Shown: piece after piece, positions 50,905-58,309 of the stretch
Numbering within the stretch: position 1 is the stretch's first letter
Layout: each line of letters starts with the position of its first letter
Assembly: GCF_001580995.1 (NCBI RefSeq)
Contig: NZ_LHZU01000140.1
Coordinates: 1 to 64,000, forward strand
Source: Acetobacter senegalensis
Lineage (GTDB): Bacteria; Pseudomonadota; Alphaproteobacteria; Acetobacterales; Acetobacteraceae
DNA: 64,000 bases
Direction of reading: 5' to 3'
Made by a program: the position numbers and the translations under genes
The notes under the pieces: generated by a model
Told to the model about the DNA's origin: nothing
Databases searched by the model: none
The model's input: only the letters and a program-made list of their open reading frames with translations

Positions 50905-51819
50905 ATGGAGCATAAGCCTGCGGGAGCCCGAAAGACGCATGTCTTCCGGCATGGAACCATGCTGGCCGCAGCGTTGGCGCTGGTGTCCTGGGGGAGCGCT
51001 TATCCCGTTGTGCGCATGGCGCTGCATAGTATGGCGCCCATTCCTCTGGCTGCGGCACGTTATGCGGTTGCGGCCATTGTGGCGTTGGTCTGGGTGGCCT
51101 GGAAACGGCCGTTGTTGCCACGAGTACAGGATCTGCCGCGTTTTGTGCTGTGTGGCGCAGTCGGCATTACGCTTTATAATATTCTGTTCAATGTAGGTGA
51201 GCAGACGGTCTCTTCTGGTGCAGCAAGCCTGCTGATCAGTTTTTCACCCCTCATATCAGCCTTTATTGCGGTTGCGTTTCTGGGGGAACGTCTCTCTTTA
51301 TGGGGCTGGGTGGGGTCTCTGGTCAGCTTTGCCGGTGTGGTGTTGATTGCACGCAGCCAGCCGGGTGGCCTTGCGTTTGGTTCCGGCGCTGCGGATATTG
51401 TGGGGGCAGCGTTTTCTGCGGCCCTCTACAACACGCTCCAGAAAAAACTGGTGGCGTCTTATGGTGCTTTGGCAACCACGGCGTATATCCTGATAGTGGG
51501 TGCTGTATTGCTGGCACCCTGGTGGGCAGAAGCGTGGCACAGCCTGAGTATTGCGGGACCAGGTACATGGGGGCTGGTGCTCCAGTTAGGTCTGTTTCCC
51601 GCAGTGTTGGGCTATGGGGCTTGGGCCTATGTGGTGGGGCATCTGGGCGTGGCGCGGTCTTCGGGGCTGCTTTATCTGCTTTCTCCCACCACGTTGGTGT
51701 TGGCGTTTCTTTTGGCCGGGGAAGTGCCGACATTCAGAATTCTGCTTGGCGGGGCCATCATCTTGAGCGGGGTGGCCTTAATGAATGCTAAAGGCCGGAA
51801 ACCAAAAAGCGCGGGATAG
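50905..51819 (+). CDS. EamA/DMT family exporter
   Basis: A 304-residue inner-membrane protein with ten hydrophobic helices in two EamA repeats (about 14-145 and 160-295). The first repeat begins ALALVSWGSAYPVVRMAL and the second contains FSAALYNTLQKKLVASYG. Members export amino acids, metabolites or drugs; the substrate is unknown. AGGA lies just before the ATG. It follows the phosphatase gene by 30 nt and ends at a bidirectional terminator. Confidence 0.87.
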   Translation: MEHKPAGARKTHVFRHGTMLAAALALVSWGSAYPVVRMALHSMAPIPLAAARYAVAAIVALVWVAWKRPLLPRVQDLPRFVLCGAVGITLYNILFNVGEQTVSSGAASLLISFSPLISAFIAVAFLGERLSLWGWVGSLVSFAGVVLIARSQPGGLAFGSGAADIVGAAFSAALYNTLQKKLVASYGALATTAYILIVGAVLLAPWWAEAWHSLSIAGPGTWGLVLQLGLFPAVLGYGAWAYVVGHLGVARSSGLLYLLSPTTLVLAFLLAGEVPTFRILLGGAIILSGVALMNAKGRKPKSAG

Positions 51820-51840
51820 ACAAAAGAAAGGCACGAAAGA

Positions 51841-51875
51841 AAAAACGCCGGAAGCAGACATGCTCCGGCGTTTTC
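51841..51875. terminator. Terminator between exporter and pgk
   Basis: AAAACGCCGGA and TCCGGCGTTTT pair perfectly at 51842-51874, with A and T tails suitable for both convergent genes. Confidence 0.9.
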
Positions 51876-51936
51876 TGAAGAACTCTTCCTGTTTTTGATC
51901 AAAGTGAGAAACAGGAAGCGCTTTTCTTAAGGTTTT

Positions 51937-53160
51937 TTAGATGGGAATGGTGCGTTCCAGCGTGGTGCTGATGGCGGTCAGACCCGGCAGAACCTTGCCT
52001 TCCAGCCATTCCAGAAACGCACCGCCAGCGGTGGAAACATAGGTCATGTCTTCCAGAACCCCAGCATGGCGCAGGGCGGAAACGGTATCTCCCCCACCGG
52101 CAATGGTTTTCAGAGCACCGGCTTTGGTCAGGCGTGCCGCTTCCTGCGCAACAGCGTTTGTGCCTTCATCAAACGGAGGCATTTCAAACACGCCCAGCGG
52201 ACCGTTCCAGACCAGCGTTTTCAGGCCCGCCAGTTTTTCTTTTAGCAGTTTGACGGTTTCAGGCCCTACGTCCAGCGCCATCCAGCCATCAGGAATATCC
52301 GTAACCGGGGCAACAGCAGTGGGGGCTCCCGCCATGAAGTCTTCTGAAAGCACAACATCAACAGGCAGAATCAGCTCGCACTTCTTGGCTTCAGCCTGCG
52401 CCATGATCTGGCGGGCCGTGTCCAGCATGTCTTCTTCCTTTAAAGACTTGCCAACCTTGTAGCCTTTTGCTGCGAGGAACGTGTTGGCCATGGCACCGCC
52501 AACGGCCAGAACATCCACTTTTTCCAGCATGTTTTCCAAAAGTGCCAGTTTGGTGGAGACCTTGGCCCCCCCAACAATCGCACCAACCGGACGTTCCGGA
52601 TTTTCCAGCGCTGCATCCAGCGCTGCAATTTCCGCTTCCATCAGGCGGCCTGCATAGGCGGGCAGATGCTCGGCCACGCCAGCAGTGGAGGCATGGGCCC
52701 GGTGCGCGGCAGAAAACGCATCGTTCACATACACATCGCCCAGATTAGCCAGGGCTGCGGAAAGATCGGGTGCGTTGGTTTCTTCACCCGGCTGGAACCG
52801 GGTGTTTTCAAGCAGAAGAACTTCGCCATCTTTCAGGGATGCAGCAGCAGCTTCCGCATCTGGGCCGATGCAGTCATGCGCAAAGCTGACAGGCTTGCCC
52901 AGAGCCGTGGCGAGCGCTGTGGCGATGGGCTGGAGTGACATGTCCGGCACCACTTTGCCTTTGGGGCGGTCAAAGTGGCTGAGCACAATCACCCGGCCCC
53001 CCTTGTCGGCCAGTTCCCGAATGGTGGGAACAATGCGCTCGATACGGGTAAAATCAGAAATAACCCCATCTTTCATGGGAACATTCAGATCGACACGCAG
53101 CAGGATACGCTTGCCGCGAGGGTCAAGCTTATCCAGCGTGTTGAAAGGGATCATGGCCAT
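51937..53160 (-). CDS. pgk: Phosphoglycerate kinase
   Basis: Glycolytic enzyme transferring phosphate from 1,3-bisphosphoglycerate to ADP, 407 residues. N-terminal [15 protein letters not shown], substrate-binding LSHFDRPKG, the [10 protein letters not shown] stretch, GGAKVSTKL and the C-terminal GGGDTVSAL are all typical. The ATG overlaps the gap stop (TAATG), implying coupled translation; a second in-frame ATG two codons on is also possible. Third gene of the leftward transketolase-like, gap, pgk operon. Confidence 0.96.
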
Positions 53161-54182
53161 TAGAGAGTTCCAAACAGAGCGGCTGTATCAGCCATGCGGT
53201 TGGAGAAGCCCCATTCGTTATCATACCAGGAGCAGATACGAACCAGCTTGCCGCCATCCACCAGAGAAGTCTGGGTTGCATCAAACGTGGAGGATGCCAG
53301 AGCATGGTTGAAGTCGGAGCTGACCAGTGGCGCATCGGAATACGCCAGAATGCCCTTCAGCGGGCCAGATGAAGCTGCCGTCTTGATGGCGTTGTTGACG
53401 TCTTCAACAGAGCCCGGAATTTTTTTCGGCACGAAATCAAGGGAGACCAGAGACACATTGGCCGTTGGCACGCGAATGGCGGTGCCATCCAGCTTGCCTT
53501 TCAGGTGTGGCAGAACCAGCCCCACAGCACGGGCCGCGCCGGTGGAGGTGGGGATCATGTTCAGGCCAGCGGCACGGGCGCGGCGCAGATCCTTGTGCAG
53601 GGTATCCACAGTGCGCTGGTCACCCGTGTAGGAGTGAATGGTCACCATGTAACCGCGTTCAATGCCGAACGTATCTTCCAGAACCTTGGCAACGGGGGCC
53701 AGACAGTTGGTGGTGCAGGAGGCGTTGGAGATCACCGTCATATCCGGTGTCAGCACGTCCTGGTTCACGCCAAACACGATTGTGGCGTCCACATCTGTTG
53801 CGGGGGCGGAGATCAGCACCTTGCGGGCGCCAGCCTTCAGCAGTGGCTGTGCTTTTTCCTTGGAGGTGAACAGGCCTGTGCATTCCATGGCCACATCCAC
53901 ACCTTCAAACGGTACCTTGGACGGGTCACGCTCTGCGGAAACCGTGATCGGGTCCCAGGTGCGGCCCTGTGTCGTGATGATCAGCTTGTTGCCGTCAACG
54001 CGCACATCCGCGGGCAGGCGTCCATGCACACTGTCATAGCTGAGCAGATGCGCGTTGTCTTCCACACTCCCAAGATCGTTAATCGCTACAGGGACAACAT
54101 CGGTCCGTCCGCTTTCAATCAGCCCGCGCAGGACGAGTCGGCCAATGCGACCGAAGCCGTTGATAGCGATTTTGACTGCCAT
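53160..54182 (-). CDS. gap: Glyceraldehyde-3-phosphate dehydrogenase
   Basis: 340-residue phosphorylating [13 protein letters not shown] at 8-15 binds the cofactor; AINDLG at 33-38 is of the NAD-preferring kind; catalytic Cys156 lies in [13 protein letters not shown], and the His base in the following HSYTGDQR segment. The C-terminal [12 protein letters not shown] is intact. It is 24 nt downstream of the transketolase-like gene and overlaps pgk by one base. The reversible enzyme serves both lower glycolysis and gluconeogenesis. Confidence 0.97.
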
Positions 54183-54206
54183 TTGTCTGTTCTCCGTTTT
54201 TATCTT

Positions 54207-56177
54207 TTATGGTCTTGTCAGTAACGGTCCCCGAGCGCGTGCCCGAGGCTGGTCCGGCGCGAACGAGGAAGCTCCCCGTGCAGCGCCTGAGGCAAAAAGG
54301 TGATGCTCCACCTTTTCACAGATCGCTTCAGCAGTAATGCCGAAACGCTCATACAATGCGTTGGCCGGGGCAGACGTGCCGAAATCATCCATGCCAACAA
54401 AAATTCCTTCCGGGCCAAGCCAGCGTTCCCAGCCAAAGCCGGATGCGGCCTCAATCCCTATCCGTAATCCCGCTCCTCCCAGAACTGCACGGCGGTACGT
54501 GCCGGGCTGGGCGGCAAACAGTTCCCAACATGGGATGGATACCACCGCAGCGCGGATGTTCCGCTGCGCCAGATGGTGCGATGCTTCAAGCGCAATGGCA
54601 ACCTCTGGGCCGGAGGCAATCAGCGTGACCTGCCGTTTTTCCGGACTGCGGATAACGTAACCGCCACGGGTTGCGCCCCCCAAGACTGCGGCCGGAAAAC
54701 GGAGGGGCGTGTTCTGGTGGGGACACAGTACCAGAACAGCCGGGCCACCCTGCCAGTGGAGAGCGGCCTCCCAGCATTTGAAGGTTTCCTCTGCACTGCC
54801 GGGGCGGAAAACGGCCAGATTAGGGGTGGCGCGCAGGCTGGCCAACTGTTCAACCGGCTGCCACGCGCCGCCGCCATCCCCAAGGGCCAGACCGTCTCCG
54901 GTAAGAAGATACAGCACTTTCTGGCGCGTGAAGGCCGCCATGCGTAGCGCGGAACGCATGCGGTCCACGGTCATCATGCTGGCGGCGGCGCAGGCCAGCA
55001 CACCACCATGCAAGGCAAGACCGTTGAGCATACCAGCCATGCCGTGTTCTTGAATGCCGCATTCCCGACCTTTGGCCAGTGCCACGGGCCTTTGCCATCC
55101 GGCAGTATTCTGGTCAGAGGGGGGCGCGTTCTTGGCGGAGGCTGCGGTAAGGCAGGTCAGTTCCGGCAGGATATCCGATAGAGCATCCAGCCCAGCCAGC
55201 CCGGATTCCTGAGTGGAGGTTTCCAAGGCGGTGCGCATCCGCCATTCCCATGCGCGCTGCCAGTCTTCATGGAACAGCGTGGGCGGGCGGGCTGTCTGTT
55301 CGCGTTCAAAGGCGGTGCGCTGGCGGTGCCGGGCAAAGCGGCGCAACCAGGAGCGACGGGTGGAAGCGCCGCGCCTTGCCGTGGGGCTCCACGGGCCAGT
55401 CAGTTCTTCTTCTGGCGGAAGATCTGGGCCAAGGGGAGAGAGTGGAGCGGCGGAGGGCAGGCAGGCAATCAGCGTTGGTTTGCGGGCCCGTAATGTTGCG
55501 GCCAGAGCGGAGGTGATGGCGGGAAGATTGTCGGCCTCCACCTTGCGCACCGTCCAGCCAGAGGCACTGAACCGTGTGAGCGAATCGACAAAATCAGCAG
55601 TATCCGGTTCTGAAGGCGGTGCGACCAGCACGGCCAGACGGTCCAGCCCGAAGCGGCCCGCCAGTTGGGCGGCTTCCATCGCAACACCTGTGGCAAGATC
55701 CGTATCCTGCGCCAGAACCCAAGTTCGGTGATTGACCAGAGAGCGGCCAAACCGGCGGCAAAGAGCCTGTTCAGCCAGAGCCATGCCTGCGGCGGCAGCT
55801 ACCCCCTGCCCTGCCGGGCCGGGAGCCACTTCCACCGCAGGATGACGACCATATTCAAGAGGAACAGCAGCGTGTTTTTTCTCGCCTGTCAGGCGCAACA
55901 TGGCGCGGAGCAAGGGCTGCATGGTGGTGGAGGGCACCACAAAACGGTCCCGGTCCGGCCAGTCTGGTGCTGCGGGGTCAAACCGGAGCACCCGGCACCA
56001 CAGGGCTGTTACGGGCAGGCACATCAGTTCCAGCACTGCGCGAATATGGGCTGGCAGGGTTTCCGTGCGGAGTAACTGGCGCGCAGCGTGGCTCATCCGC
56101 ACAACGCTGATCTGTTGAGCGGAGAGGCCTCCTTCCTCATTGGAAAGGAGATGGTCTGTCGAAAGGGCTGTTGCCAT
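54207..56177 (-). CDS. Transketolase-like protein with altered active site
   Basis: A 656-residue protein aligning along its whole length with transketolase (WPDRDRFV at 73-80, PAGQGVAAAAGMALAE at 121-136, GIQEHGMAGMLNGLALHGG at 374-392, QPVEQLASLRATPNL near 440-454). Yet key residues are missing: SNGH is VPSTTM at 81-86, the thiamine-diphosphate motif GDG is QDT at 157-159, its partner Asn is lost at PPSE 187-190, the loop His near 240-250 is absent, and the His of DGPTHQPVEQ is Trp439. Glu377 is kept. It is probably not a normal transketolase; a regulatory or structural role is inferred. It is first in the operon with gap and pgk. Confidence 0.85.
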   Translation of the reverse strand: MATALSTDHLLSNEEGGLSAQQISVVRMSHAARQLLRTETLPAHIRAVLELMCLPVTALWCRVLRFDPAAPDWPDRDRFVVPSTTMQPLLRAMLRLTGEKKHAAVPLEYGRHPAVEVAPGPAGQGVAAAAGMALAEQALCRRFGRSLVNHRTWVLAQDTDLATGVAMEAAQLAGRFGLDRLAVLVAPPSEPDTADFVDSLTRFSASGWTVRKVEADNLPAITSALAATLRARKPTLIACLPSAAPLSPLGPDLPPEEELTGPWSPTARRGASTRRSWLRRFARHRQRTAFEREQTARPPTLFHEDWQRAWEWRMRTALETSTQESGLAGLDALSDILPELTCLTAASAKNAPPSDQNTAGWQRPVALAKGRECGIQEHGMAGMLNGLALHGGVLACAAASMMTVDRMRSALRMAAFTRQKVLYLLTGDGLALGDGGGAWQPVEQLASLRATPNLAVFRPGSAEETFKCWEAALHWQGGPAVLVLCPHQNTPLRFPAAVLGGATRGGYVIRSPEKRQVTLIASGPEVAIALEASHHLAQRNIRAAVVSIPCWELFAAQPGTYRRAVLGGAGLRIGIEAASGFGWERWLGPEGIFVGMDDFGTSAPANALYERFGITAEAICEKVEHHLFASGAARGASSFAPDQPRARARGPLLTRP

Positions 56178-56446
56178 TCGCCTGCCTCAGGTGACGGGCC
56201 TGTCATGACGACCGGTCTTCTCATCACTGCGTTTTGGTCAATAAAGGGGTGTGGAGATTTGAGCAAGGGCTCATCCACATAACCGAATGTACACAAGCAA
56301 AGGCCAGAAAAACGACAACAAAACGGCAGACGGGCGTGATTTTGGCCTGTCTTTATGAGGGTGTTGCCTTGCGTTGGGCGCAAAGGAGCGCGAAAGAGAG
56401 AGAAAGACCACTCTACTTTTTCAGCCTGCTCGGAGATCTGCCCCTC

Positions 56447-56923
56447 ATGCCCTCTGTTTCCTGTTTTGCAGAAAGGCGGCCTGTTGTGCGGATCATGCTG
56501 CTGGCAGGCGTTGCGCTGTGCCTGAACGGGTGCAAACTGGTGGACCAGAAAACCTTTAATCCGCAGGCGGGCACACCGCCCAAACCCTATATTCCGCCGC
56601 CGCCGCCCGGTCCGCCCCCTGTGCCGCCGCTGGTGGAACTGGTGGGGGGCACACCTTCTGAAGAATGGGCAGCCCCAGTTGACCGGATGGTGCATGAGGC
56701 ACTGGCACGGAAGCCAAACATTCTGTTTGTGGTAAAATGTCTGGTGCCGGCGTCCGGAAAAAGCGAACTTGATCAACTGACACTGGTGCAACTGGTGCAG
56801 GGTGATGGGCAGGCCGTGACAAAAGAAATTGTCAAGGCAGGAGCGGCTCCTGAACAAGTGGAAATAACCGCTATGCCAGATTCGACCGTGACGAAGCCGG
56901 TCATCAGGGTGTATGTGCAGTAA
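56447..56923 (+). CDS. Hypothetical lipoprotein with proline-rich linker
   Basis: A 158-residue exported protein of unknown function. The signal VRIMLLAGVALCLNGC ends in a lipobox with acceptor Cys at about residue 30. A Pro-rich stretch (PPPPPGPPPVPPL) follows, then a folded part of about 90 residues without Cys pairs or known motifs. GGAGA lies 11 nt before the ATG at 56447; a longer frame from 56234 and a shorter start at 56495 are alternatives. Divergent from the transketolase-like gene, upstream of hemA. Confidence 0.65.
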   Translation: MPSVSCFAERRPVVRIMLLAGVALCLNGCKLVDQKTFNPQAGTPPKPYIPPPPPGPPPVPPLVELVGGTPSEEWAAPVDRMVHEALARKPNILFVVKCLVPASGKSELDQLTLVQLVQGDGQAVTKEIVKAGAAPEQVEITAMPDSTVTKPVIRVYVQ

Positions 56924-57031
56924 AGCTTACACCATTATGTGAAGTCATACTGTAAAAAGACACCGGCCAGACGGCCGACGGGCCATGCGCCGTGCCCCGA
57001 CCGTTTCTGACGACGCGAGGAGAGTAGTAGC

Positions 57032-58309
57032 GTGGGATTGATCAAGAACGCCCGGCATCCGTTTTATGAACATTGCCATTCGGCGTTGAACGAGATCAGG
57101 CAGCAAGGACGGTACCGCACATTTACACCGCTGGCGCGACTGGCTGAGCGTTTTCCCCTGTATGAGGAAGAAGTTGCCGCCGTGCCGGAAGGGCGTGAAG
57201 TAGTGGTGTGGTCAACCAATGACTATCTGGGCATGGGCGTGGTGCCGGAAGTGCAGGAAGCAGCCATTGCGGCTATCCGTGAGCACGGCGCTGGCGCAGG
57301 GGGCACCCGCAACATTGCCGGAACCAGCCCGCTACACACGCAGCTTGAGGCGGAACTGGCATCGCTGCATGGCAAGGAAGCGGGCCTGCTGTTTGTTTCC
57401 GGTTATGTGTCCAACCAGGCCAGCCTGCAAACCATCCTGACCTCCATGCCGGGCTGGATCTGCTTTTCAGACCGCATGAACCATGCGTCCATGATCGCCG
57501 GTATCAAAGGGGCCCGCGGCTCTCAGACCGTTATTTTTGAACATAATGATCTGGCTGATCTGGAAGCCAAGCTGGCGGAAGCTCCAGCGGAAGCCCCCAA
57601 GTTGATCGCGTTTGAAAGCGTGTATTCAATGGATGGGGATATGGCGGATATTGCCGGTATCTGTGCGCTGGCGCGCAAATACAATGCCATCACCTATCTG
57701 GATGAAGTACACGCCGTTGGCCTGTATGGTGAAGAAGGCGGTGGTGTCTCCCAGCGTGATGGCGTGGCGGATCAGGTTGATATTATTGAAGGCACGCTGG
57801 CCAAGGGATTTGGCGTGCATGGCGGGTACATCACGGCTTCAGCCGAGATTGTCGATTTCCTGCGCTCCACGGCATCTGGCTTCATTTTCACAACGGCACT
57901 TCCTCCGGCTGTTGTGGGTGCGGCGCTGACCAGTGTGCGCAAGGTCCGTGCTGAAGGCTGGCGGCGTGAGAAGATGTTTGAGCGGGTGAATACCTTCCGC
58001 CAGCGTCTGCGTGCGGCGGGTATTCCCTTCACCATGACGCCCAGCCACATTGTGCCGGTGCCGATCGGGGATGCAGAAACCTGTAAGCGCATCAGCCGCC
58101 GCTTGCTGACGGAATATGGTCAGTATGCCACCCCCATCAATTATCCCACGGTTGCCAAAGGCACGGAACGTCTGCGGCTTACGCCGGGGCCATTCCACAC
58201 TGATGAGATGATGGACGAGATGGTGCGGGCGCTTTCTGTCCTGCTGCGGGAAGAAGGGGTTATTCCCGGCCGTTCAGCAGCGGAACGTCAGACAGAAAAA
58301 GCAGCCTGA
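57032..58309 (+). CDS. hemA: 5-aminolevulinate synthase
   Basis: PLP enzyme joining glycine and succinyl-CoA, the first step of haem synthesis in alphaproteobacteria (Shemin route). The 425-residue product shows the N-terminal [17 protein letters not shown], the [17 protein letters not shown] glycine-rich segment, the [12 protein letters not shown] motif and the PLP lysine Lys258 in [11 protein letters not shown]. The start is GTG at 57032 with AGGAGAG upstream. Pathway partners hemE and hemJ lie at the other end of the window. Confidence 0.96.

Follow-up and report, generated by a model that had tools for sequence, protein, structure and literature searches.

Human TKTL1 and TKTL2 are transketolase paralogues of unclear enzymatic status, and PMC6334435, on the basis of homology models, argues that both accommodate cofactor and are functional. 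Pseudoenzymes in general, as treated in a review (PMC10211241), are intact members of an enzyme family without the conserved catalytic motifs, which is also the condition of the protein described here; a word search of the main text of that review returned no occurrence of the word transketolase. For acetic acid bacteria, two published reconstructions give two transketolase genes for Acetobacter pasteurianus 386B (PMC3751514) and four for Gluconacetobacter (Komagataeibacter) xylinus CGMCC 2955 (PMC5908849).

We analysed a 64,000-nucleotide stretch of a contig from Acetobacter senegalensis (the window), in which positions 54207-56177 hold an open reading frame for a protein related to transketolase (TK). 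The frame starts with ATG at 56177, ends with a stop at 54207 and is intact over its 656 codons, and the plus strand of the same segment is broken by stops. The two genes after it are ones we take, by sequence and synteny, to be gap and pgk, and this gap is the sole match at E <= 1e-80 in the genome of the window (Table 1). An initial sequence-only reading had described an intact frame at the head of a conserved glycolytic operon; the frame indeed runs without interruption, gap and pgk follow it on the same strand, and gap is likewise placed in 79 of 80 loci compared below. That observation stands apart from its strand, the frame lying on the minus strand, and apart from a few residues that are retained. 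Upstream of the frame lie a small divergent ORF (window 56234-56923) and a gene at 57032-58309 that presumably encodes a 5-aminolevulinate synthase-like protein, and both keep this position relative to the dead TK in most loci of Acetobacter, Gluconacetobacter, Komagataeibacter and Novacetimonas. A promoter scan of 51700-57200 gave 0 promoter-like sites (1.1 in shuffles), and terminator-like sites in the same interval were as frequent as in shuffles.

Table 1. Features of the pseudo-transketolase locus in window coordinates (aa, residue of the 656-aa protein; TktA, E. coli transketolase).
Feature	Position	Strand	Basis or remark
Pseudo-transketolase ORF, 656 aa, first gene of tk-gap-pgk cluster	54207..56177	-	ORF, Pfam, TIGR00232 and site alignment
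gap (GAPDH)	53160..54182	-	24 bp past TK stop
pgk (phosphoglycerate kinase)	51937..53160	-	overlaps gap by one base
Transketolase_N (PP) domain match, aa 57-239, without cofactor ligands	55461..56009	-	Pfam and site alignment
aa 82-85 PSTT, equivalent to TktA S63-N-G-H66	55923..55934	-	alignment
aa 157-159 QDT, equivalent to TktA G154-D-G156; Asp retained	55701..55709	-	alignment
Basic tract aa 263-296, predicted helix aa 265-283	55290..55391	-	conservation and structure model
Transket_pyr domain match, aa 372-484, substrate residues gone	54726..55064	-	Pfam and alignment
aa 377 Glu, equivalent to TktA Glu411, retained	55047..55049	-	alignment
aa 439 Trp replacing TktA His473	54861..54863	-	alignment
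Transketolase_C_1 domain match, aa 505-615; conserved segments IEAASGFGWERWLG and SIPCWELF	54333..54665	-	Pfam and alignment

The window protein has a complete transketolase fold. The N, pyrimidine-binding and C domains of Pfam are present in order, all over their cut-offs, and AlphaFold2, run on an alignment of 48 sequences, returned a confident TK monomer (pLDDT 84.0, pTM 0.85) that matches PDB transketolases with a TM of about 0.77 and Z up to 36.5 (5vrb: rmsd 3.3, 577 residues), bearing out the earlier statement that the whole fold is recognisable. A sequence search of solved structures returned TKs and split TKs. Given these domain scores and Z values, we rejected chance resemblance.

We scored the active site by 23 E. 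coli TktA cofactor and substrate positions, which, with their functional labels, we take as the contacts of TktA, and this site score is used throughout: copies with 0-8 of the 23 positions are called dead and copies with 20-23 live. The window protein retains three (Gly114, Asp155 and Glu411), and one further alignment gave four, with a His placed at His26. In addition to the SNGH, GDG and His473 replacements listed in Table 1, Asn185 and the loop residue His261 are gone, so that the claim that the motifs were all replaced was nearly right (it holds for SNGH, Asn185, His261 and His473) and went astray at GDG, whose Asp is retained. The Glu411 equivalent is also kept in this protein, whereas at that position the named-locus copies of Gluconacetobacter, Komagataeibacter and Novacetimonas carry Val. 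Against the NCBI transketolase equivalog TIGR00232 the window protein scored 343.5 bits, short of the cut-off of 682.25, as compared to 247-365 for five other dead copies and 800 and 822.5 for two live copies. Acetic acid bacteria share some replacements, most having Arg for Tyr440 and Trp for His473, and across the family the replacement at position 473 varies by lineage (for example Ala, Pro, Gly, Leu or Tyr); by the cut-offs used, the only dead-specific columns are R65, R145 and S579. Judged by its sequence, the window protein belongs to the TK fold family and fails the defining features of the TK enzyme.

To place this copy among its relatives, we searched for gap in 200 Acetobacteraceae genomes, 191 of which gave a match at E <= 1e-80, and fetched 80 stretches (69 via the gap match and 11 via a TK match), to which 20 earlier stretches, further loci and a set of loci from named genomes were added. 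The resulting 184 TK ORFs, which count some species twice, comprised 68 dead, 4 intermediate and 112 live, and removal of G065, whose TK is not at gap, from the last group left 183 copies of this locus type with a bimodal distribution of site scores: 111 with 20-23 sites, 68 with 0-8 and 4 between (13-18 sites). One of the four intermediates (G093, score 13) is an assembly artefact in which a stretch of N accompanies a broken frame. Dead copies were present in 20 sampled genera. The named-genome loci within this set were the best 80 of 555 confirmed stretches of one scan and comprised 35 dead copies (1-6 of 23 sites) from Acetobacter, Gluconacetobacter, Komagataeibacter and Novacetimonas, and 45 live copies (21-23 of 23) from Roseomonas-like genera, Belnapia, Siccirubricoccus, uncultured Acetobacteraceae and others. 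Among these best 80 of 555, gap follows the TK on the same strand in 79 loci, live and dead alike, at 1.0-1.6 kb in two of them; the distance between TK and gap is 24 bp in the window, and in 31 dead genomes the ends of the BLAST matches lie a median of 88 bp apart. The copy of A. pasteurianus (L043) retains 6 of 23 sites, the highest score among the named dead copies.

In the genus Acetobacter, a match at E <= 1e-70 was present in 47 of 49 genomes, and all 34 of these in which sites were read were dead (1-7 of 23). The two genomes without a match at this threshold, G291 and G292, are 1.5 and 1.7 Mb in size. A single one of the 47 matches (G284; L306, 4869-7024) has its frame split in two, which may be an assembly error. 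Across the wider sample, 18 genomes have no TK beside gap, and a search for remnants at these gap loci returned noise only (best E 1.1). Two of the 18 are ambiguous, since G004 stops at the contig edge and G052 has a TK match elsewhere; the remaining 16, one per genus and 1.9-3.7 Mb in size, have neither TK nor remnant at the gap locus, and most of these genera have dead lineages around or beside them in the gap+pgk tree; a relocated dead copy may exist elsewhere in individual genomes of the 16. Because 16 sampled genera lack a TK beside gap, the protein is not indispensable, and it is dispensable in some lineages, namely these genera at the gap locus and the two small Acetobacter genomes. One further arrangement, in G117, combines an intact dead frame (626 aa), the only one of the 68 dead copies noted as no longer beside gap, with gap and pgk on another contig and no TK before them; this may be a misassembly.

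The live and dead states are interleaved in a tree of gap+pgk, which we used as a stand-in for the species tree only. With 88 rows, the live/dead state requires 7 changes, and the starred branches alone force 3. In a 53-row version that leaves out rows without TK, G048 and G009, forcing the 27 dead and partial rows into one group lowers the log-likelihood by 190 units (p-AU 1.1e-10), with 7 changes. Single genera contain both states: in g97, G097 and G197 are live and G154 is dead (3 of 23), and in g92 the three copies retain 18, 14 and 4 of 23 sites (L116 of G151, L114 of G092 and L133 of G194, respectively). This g92 series is a snapshot of active-site decay in which the linker motif is retained.

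In a joint tree of the TKs themselves, all 14 dead copies included fall in one clade (99), and the tree program flagged two rows as long branches. Because joins in one clade are typical of long branches, we placed 14 dead or partial copies singly among live TKs, with G194 and G092 placed together with their congener G151. G154 then groups with its live congeners G097 and G197, plus G045, G125 and G176 (99), and G194 and G092 group with G151 (99), which in turn groups with live rows (with G017 and G064 at 96); the remaining placements are weakly supported or mutually different. We read the joint clade as long-branch attraction, since single placements break it up. On the TK itself, these placements make two separate origins of catalytic death firm and more than two likely, and the gap+pgk tree together with the single placements leads us to reject both one ancestral loss and the spread of a single dead paralogue, despite the joint TK tree. 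The conversion in the window lineage would then be one of several to a pseudo-transketolase at this one locus, apparently independent of each other. Repeated losses across the family, like the features common to live and dead operonic TKs described below, had escaped the sequence-only reading.

That reading had suggested looking for a second canonical tkt in the genome, and one is present (G000:C138; 23 of 23 sites, 700 aa). It is directly followed by a 973-aa ORF (L307, 4116-7037), the size of which would presumably suit a transaldolase/glucose-6-phosphate isomerase fusion, and other ORFs of its cluster look, by their first residues, like gnd and pgl. A second TK_N match above 300 bits occurs in all 36 genomes with a dead or partly dead operonic copy, and these companions retain 22-23 of 23 sites in the 30 genomes where they were read, the other six (G039, G041, G056, G071, G181 and G194) being called from the score. 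In contrast, where the operonic copy is scored as live from its sites, a second strong TK is present in only 9 of 39 genomes (G017, G018, G024, G045, G062, G076, G099, G125 and G137; Fisher p 2.7e-13, shared descent ignored). The 39 were picked by hand from the 66 genomes of this kind and exclude G107 and G162, whose operonic sites were not read; their inclusion gives 10 of 41 (Fisher p 3.7e-13). In g97, an extra full-length TK occurs only in the dead species of the three searched. In the TK tree the companions are split over two separate branches, one of which divides deeply into three, so that no one partner appears to be conserved, and the suggestion that the window protein is a partner of canonical transketolase is not favoured.

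The dead copies are under purifying selection. By the Nei-Gojobori method, dead TK dN/dS is 0.08-0.28 over 22 pairs, which overlap in species. For these pairs gap gives 0.02-0.11 and pgk 0.02-0.26, the top of the pgk range coming at a dS of 0.02, and nine pairs of live TK give 0.04-0.25. At a given dS, the rate of change in dead copies is typically two to three times that of gap and of pgk; the dead TK is relaxed relative to its neighbours and far from neutral. Regional dN/dS (12 dead and 10 live pairs) was 0.123 dead versus 0.087 live in the PP domain, 0.152 versus 0.093 in the Pyr domain and 0.163 versus 0.157 in the C domain. Conservation, compared over 19 rows each after near-copies and G065 were removed, fell from live to dead from 0.625 to 0.461 in PP, from 0.605 to 0.421 in Pyr and from 0.558 to 0.460 in C; the corresponding values were 0.655 and 0.614 for aa 133-153, 0.571 and 0.566 for aa 543-563, and 0.598 and 0.568 for aa 575-595. 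The dead copy of G117 has a dS of 1.86 to the one relative compared. We rejected a pseudogene on the intact frame in the window, dN/dS well under 1 and one split frame among 47 genus matches. The sequence-only reading had proposed a maintained pseudoenzyme, and intact frames, the dN/dS values, the 47 of 49 Acetobacter genomes and the canonical TK elsewhere all argue for it. It had named, as findings that would count against it, measured activity with no canonical TK elsewhere in the genome, or orthologues decaying with frameshifts; a canonical TK exists, and frame-splitting is confined to G284 among the 47 genus copies.

One sequence feature connects dead copies with their live operonic counterparts. 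The pattern R-x-W-[LI]-[KR]-R, the core of the basic linker tract, occurs in 64 of 68 dead copies (it is missing from four) and 101 of 111 live copies, and in none of 30 outgroup TKs (other alphaproteobacterial TKs) or 30 companions, and the looser RR-x-W-x-x-R occurs in 64 dead, 101 live, 1 outgroup and 1 companion. Over aa 263-300, conservation drops from 0.543 live to 0.491 dead (19 rows each), the smallest drop among large regions, and over aa 263-296 dN/dS is 0.096 dead and 0.153 live (12 dead and 10 live pairs). By dN the tract ranks 33 of 92 windows along the gene, so it is not the most constrained part, and apart from these small dN/dS samples there is no sign of strengthened constraint on it in dead copies. 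An apparent gain of conservation in the tract and other segments of dead copies over live ones was withdrawn, as it came from unequal samples (28 versus 9) and the non-operonic row G065. We also rejected as unsupported a constraint at the RNA level or from an overlapping gene, since dS in the tract (0.57) is no lower than elsewhere.

R151, W153, R211, R230, H284 and W586 are among the residues that dead and live operonic TKs frequently have and the outgroup rarely has. Median pI is 8.3 for dead copies, 6.8 for live operonic copies, 5.8 for companions and 5.6 for the outgroup, and in the genome of the window the pI is 9.0 for the dead TK, 6.3 for Gap, 5.0 for Pgk and 5.7 for the companion TK. 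The predicted basic linker helix, several arginines and a less acidic charge are common to the live operonic TK and outlast catalytic death as gauged by the site score.

On balance, we find it somewhat probable that the dead copies are maintained pseudoenzymes that inherited a non-catalytic function from the live enzyme. The operonic TK of Acetobacteraceae would have two jobs, of which dead copies retain the non-catalytic one alone. Where a second TK covers the pentose-phosphate reaction, selection on the thiamine diphosphate (ThDP) site would lapse and its residues would be replaced, while a folded, cofactor-free protein would persist and, through a presumed basic face, continue to engage a negatively charged partner. 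An anionic partner is proposed because of the pI trend and the conserved basic residues; our guess would be nucleic acid, or acidic Pgk or Gap from the same cluster, with binding that regulates or scaffolds the GAPDH-PGK node, and we regard a partner of either kind as possible yet doubtful. A role as regulator or partner of GAPDH/PGK, which the sequence-only reading proposed, would fit the near-constant synteny; in G117, though, the dead copy is intact with gap and pgk on a separate contig. In its most complete form, the operonic TK of the Acetobacteraceae ancestor would have gained this function through the basic linker helix and a more basic surface, selection would protect that function and not catalysis, and in the presence of a second TK the active site would be discarded in parallel, leaving a dedicated binding protein (for nucleic acid, or a GAPDH/PGK scaffold); this we put forward tentatively, at less than even confidence.

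One rival to an inherited function is that a redundant, well-expressed gene is decaying slowly, its constraint reflecting avoidance of misfolding and its fate being deletion in the end. The 16 sampled genera with no TK beside gap, mostly among or next to dead lineages, are what such decay would leave, and it accommodates the faster evolution of dead copies than of their neighbours, the graded g92 series of 18, 14 and 4 of 23 sites, and the lower conservation of every large region than in live copies. However, 47 of 49 Acetobacter genomes still have a match, a single copy being frame-split, whereas a neutral gene should have acquired frameshifts and stops at these dS values, and conservation is nearly maintained in aa 133-153, 543-563, 575-595 and the basic tract, against a large fall in the remainder of their domains. 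We consider slow decay unlikely. Another possibility is that the frame stays open only for the sake of gap and pgk, an untranslated leader causing polarity or lost translational coupling, with the protein itself inert. The proximity of gap (24 bp; median 88 bp) and its shared strand in 79 of the best 80 of 555 loci would suit this, but it needs an open frame and not a conserved protein, and dN/dS is 0.08-0.28. The dead frame of G117, intact with gap and pgk on another contig, also speaks against it, with the caveats that the arrangement may be a misassembly and that, at a dS of 1.86 to one relative, selection on this copy itself is putative. An inert protein kept open for its neighbours is, in our estimate, quite unlikely.

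Two further proposals are disfavoured, because the companions are diverse and the replacements lineage-specific. TKs are dimers, and a companion TK in 36 of 36 genomes is what would be expected if the dead copy were a regulatory subunit in a heterodimer with canonical transketolase; redundancy predicts the same co-occurrence, however, and with companions in two separate branches the partner would vary across losses, while both hybrid active sites would presumably contain a broken half. We rate the heterodimer as very improbable. The same holds for a new ThDP-independent enzyme in the old pocket, toward which the replacements common within acetic acid bacteria and the retention of Glu411 and Asp155 in the window protein might point, and against which stand the variation of replacements by lineage and the restriction of dead-specific columns to R65, R145 and S579.

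If the preferred reading of a pseudoenzyme with an inherited function is true, the locus offers a natural replicated experiment in how a moonlighting enzyme becomes a pseudoenzyme, with replication in the form of several apparently separate losses at one locus, a single genus graded over 18, 14 and 4 of 23 sites, and dependence on a second copy. It would also expose a hidden second function of a central-metabolism enzyme to genetics in bacteria that are harmless. A dead copy is likely among the TK genes of the two reconstructions introduced above, and metabolic models that list these genes could be corrected. Among the matches listed from the open-licence literature, we recognised no report of an inactive transketolase in acetic acid bacteria, and earlier reports are possible.

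Compared to described systems, the window protein shares with canonical TktA (TIGR00232) the three-domain fold (model against PDB transketolases: TM about 0.77; Z up to 36.5), and shares its gene order with the live tkt-gap-pgk of Roseomonas, Belnapia and Siccirubricoccus. It differs from canonical TktA in retaining 3 of 23 sites, in falling under the equivalog cut-off and in being basic (pI 9.0 versus 5.7 for the companion). Unlike TKTL1 and TKTL2, the dead operonic TK has lost nearly all sites, repeatedly, and in bacteria; in our judgement, a single syntenic locus that shows about seven state changes, and half-dead relatives within one genus, makes an unusual record.
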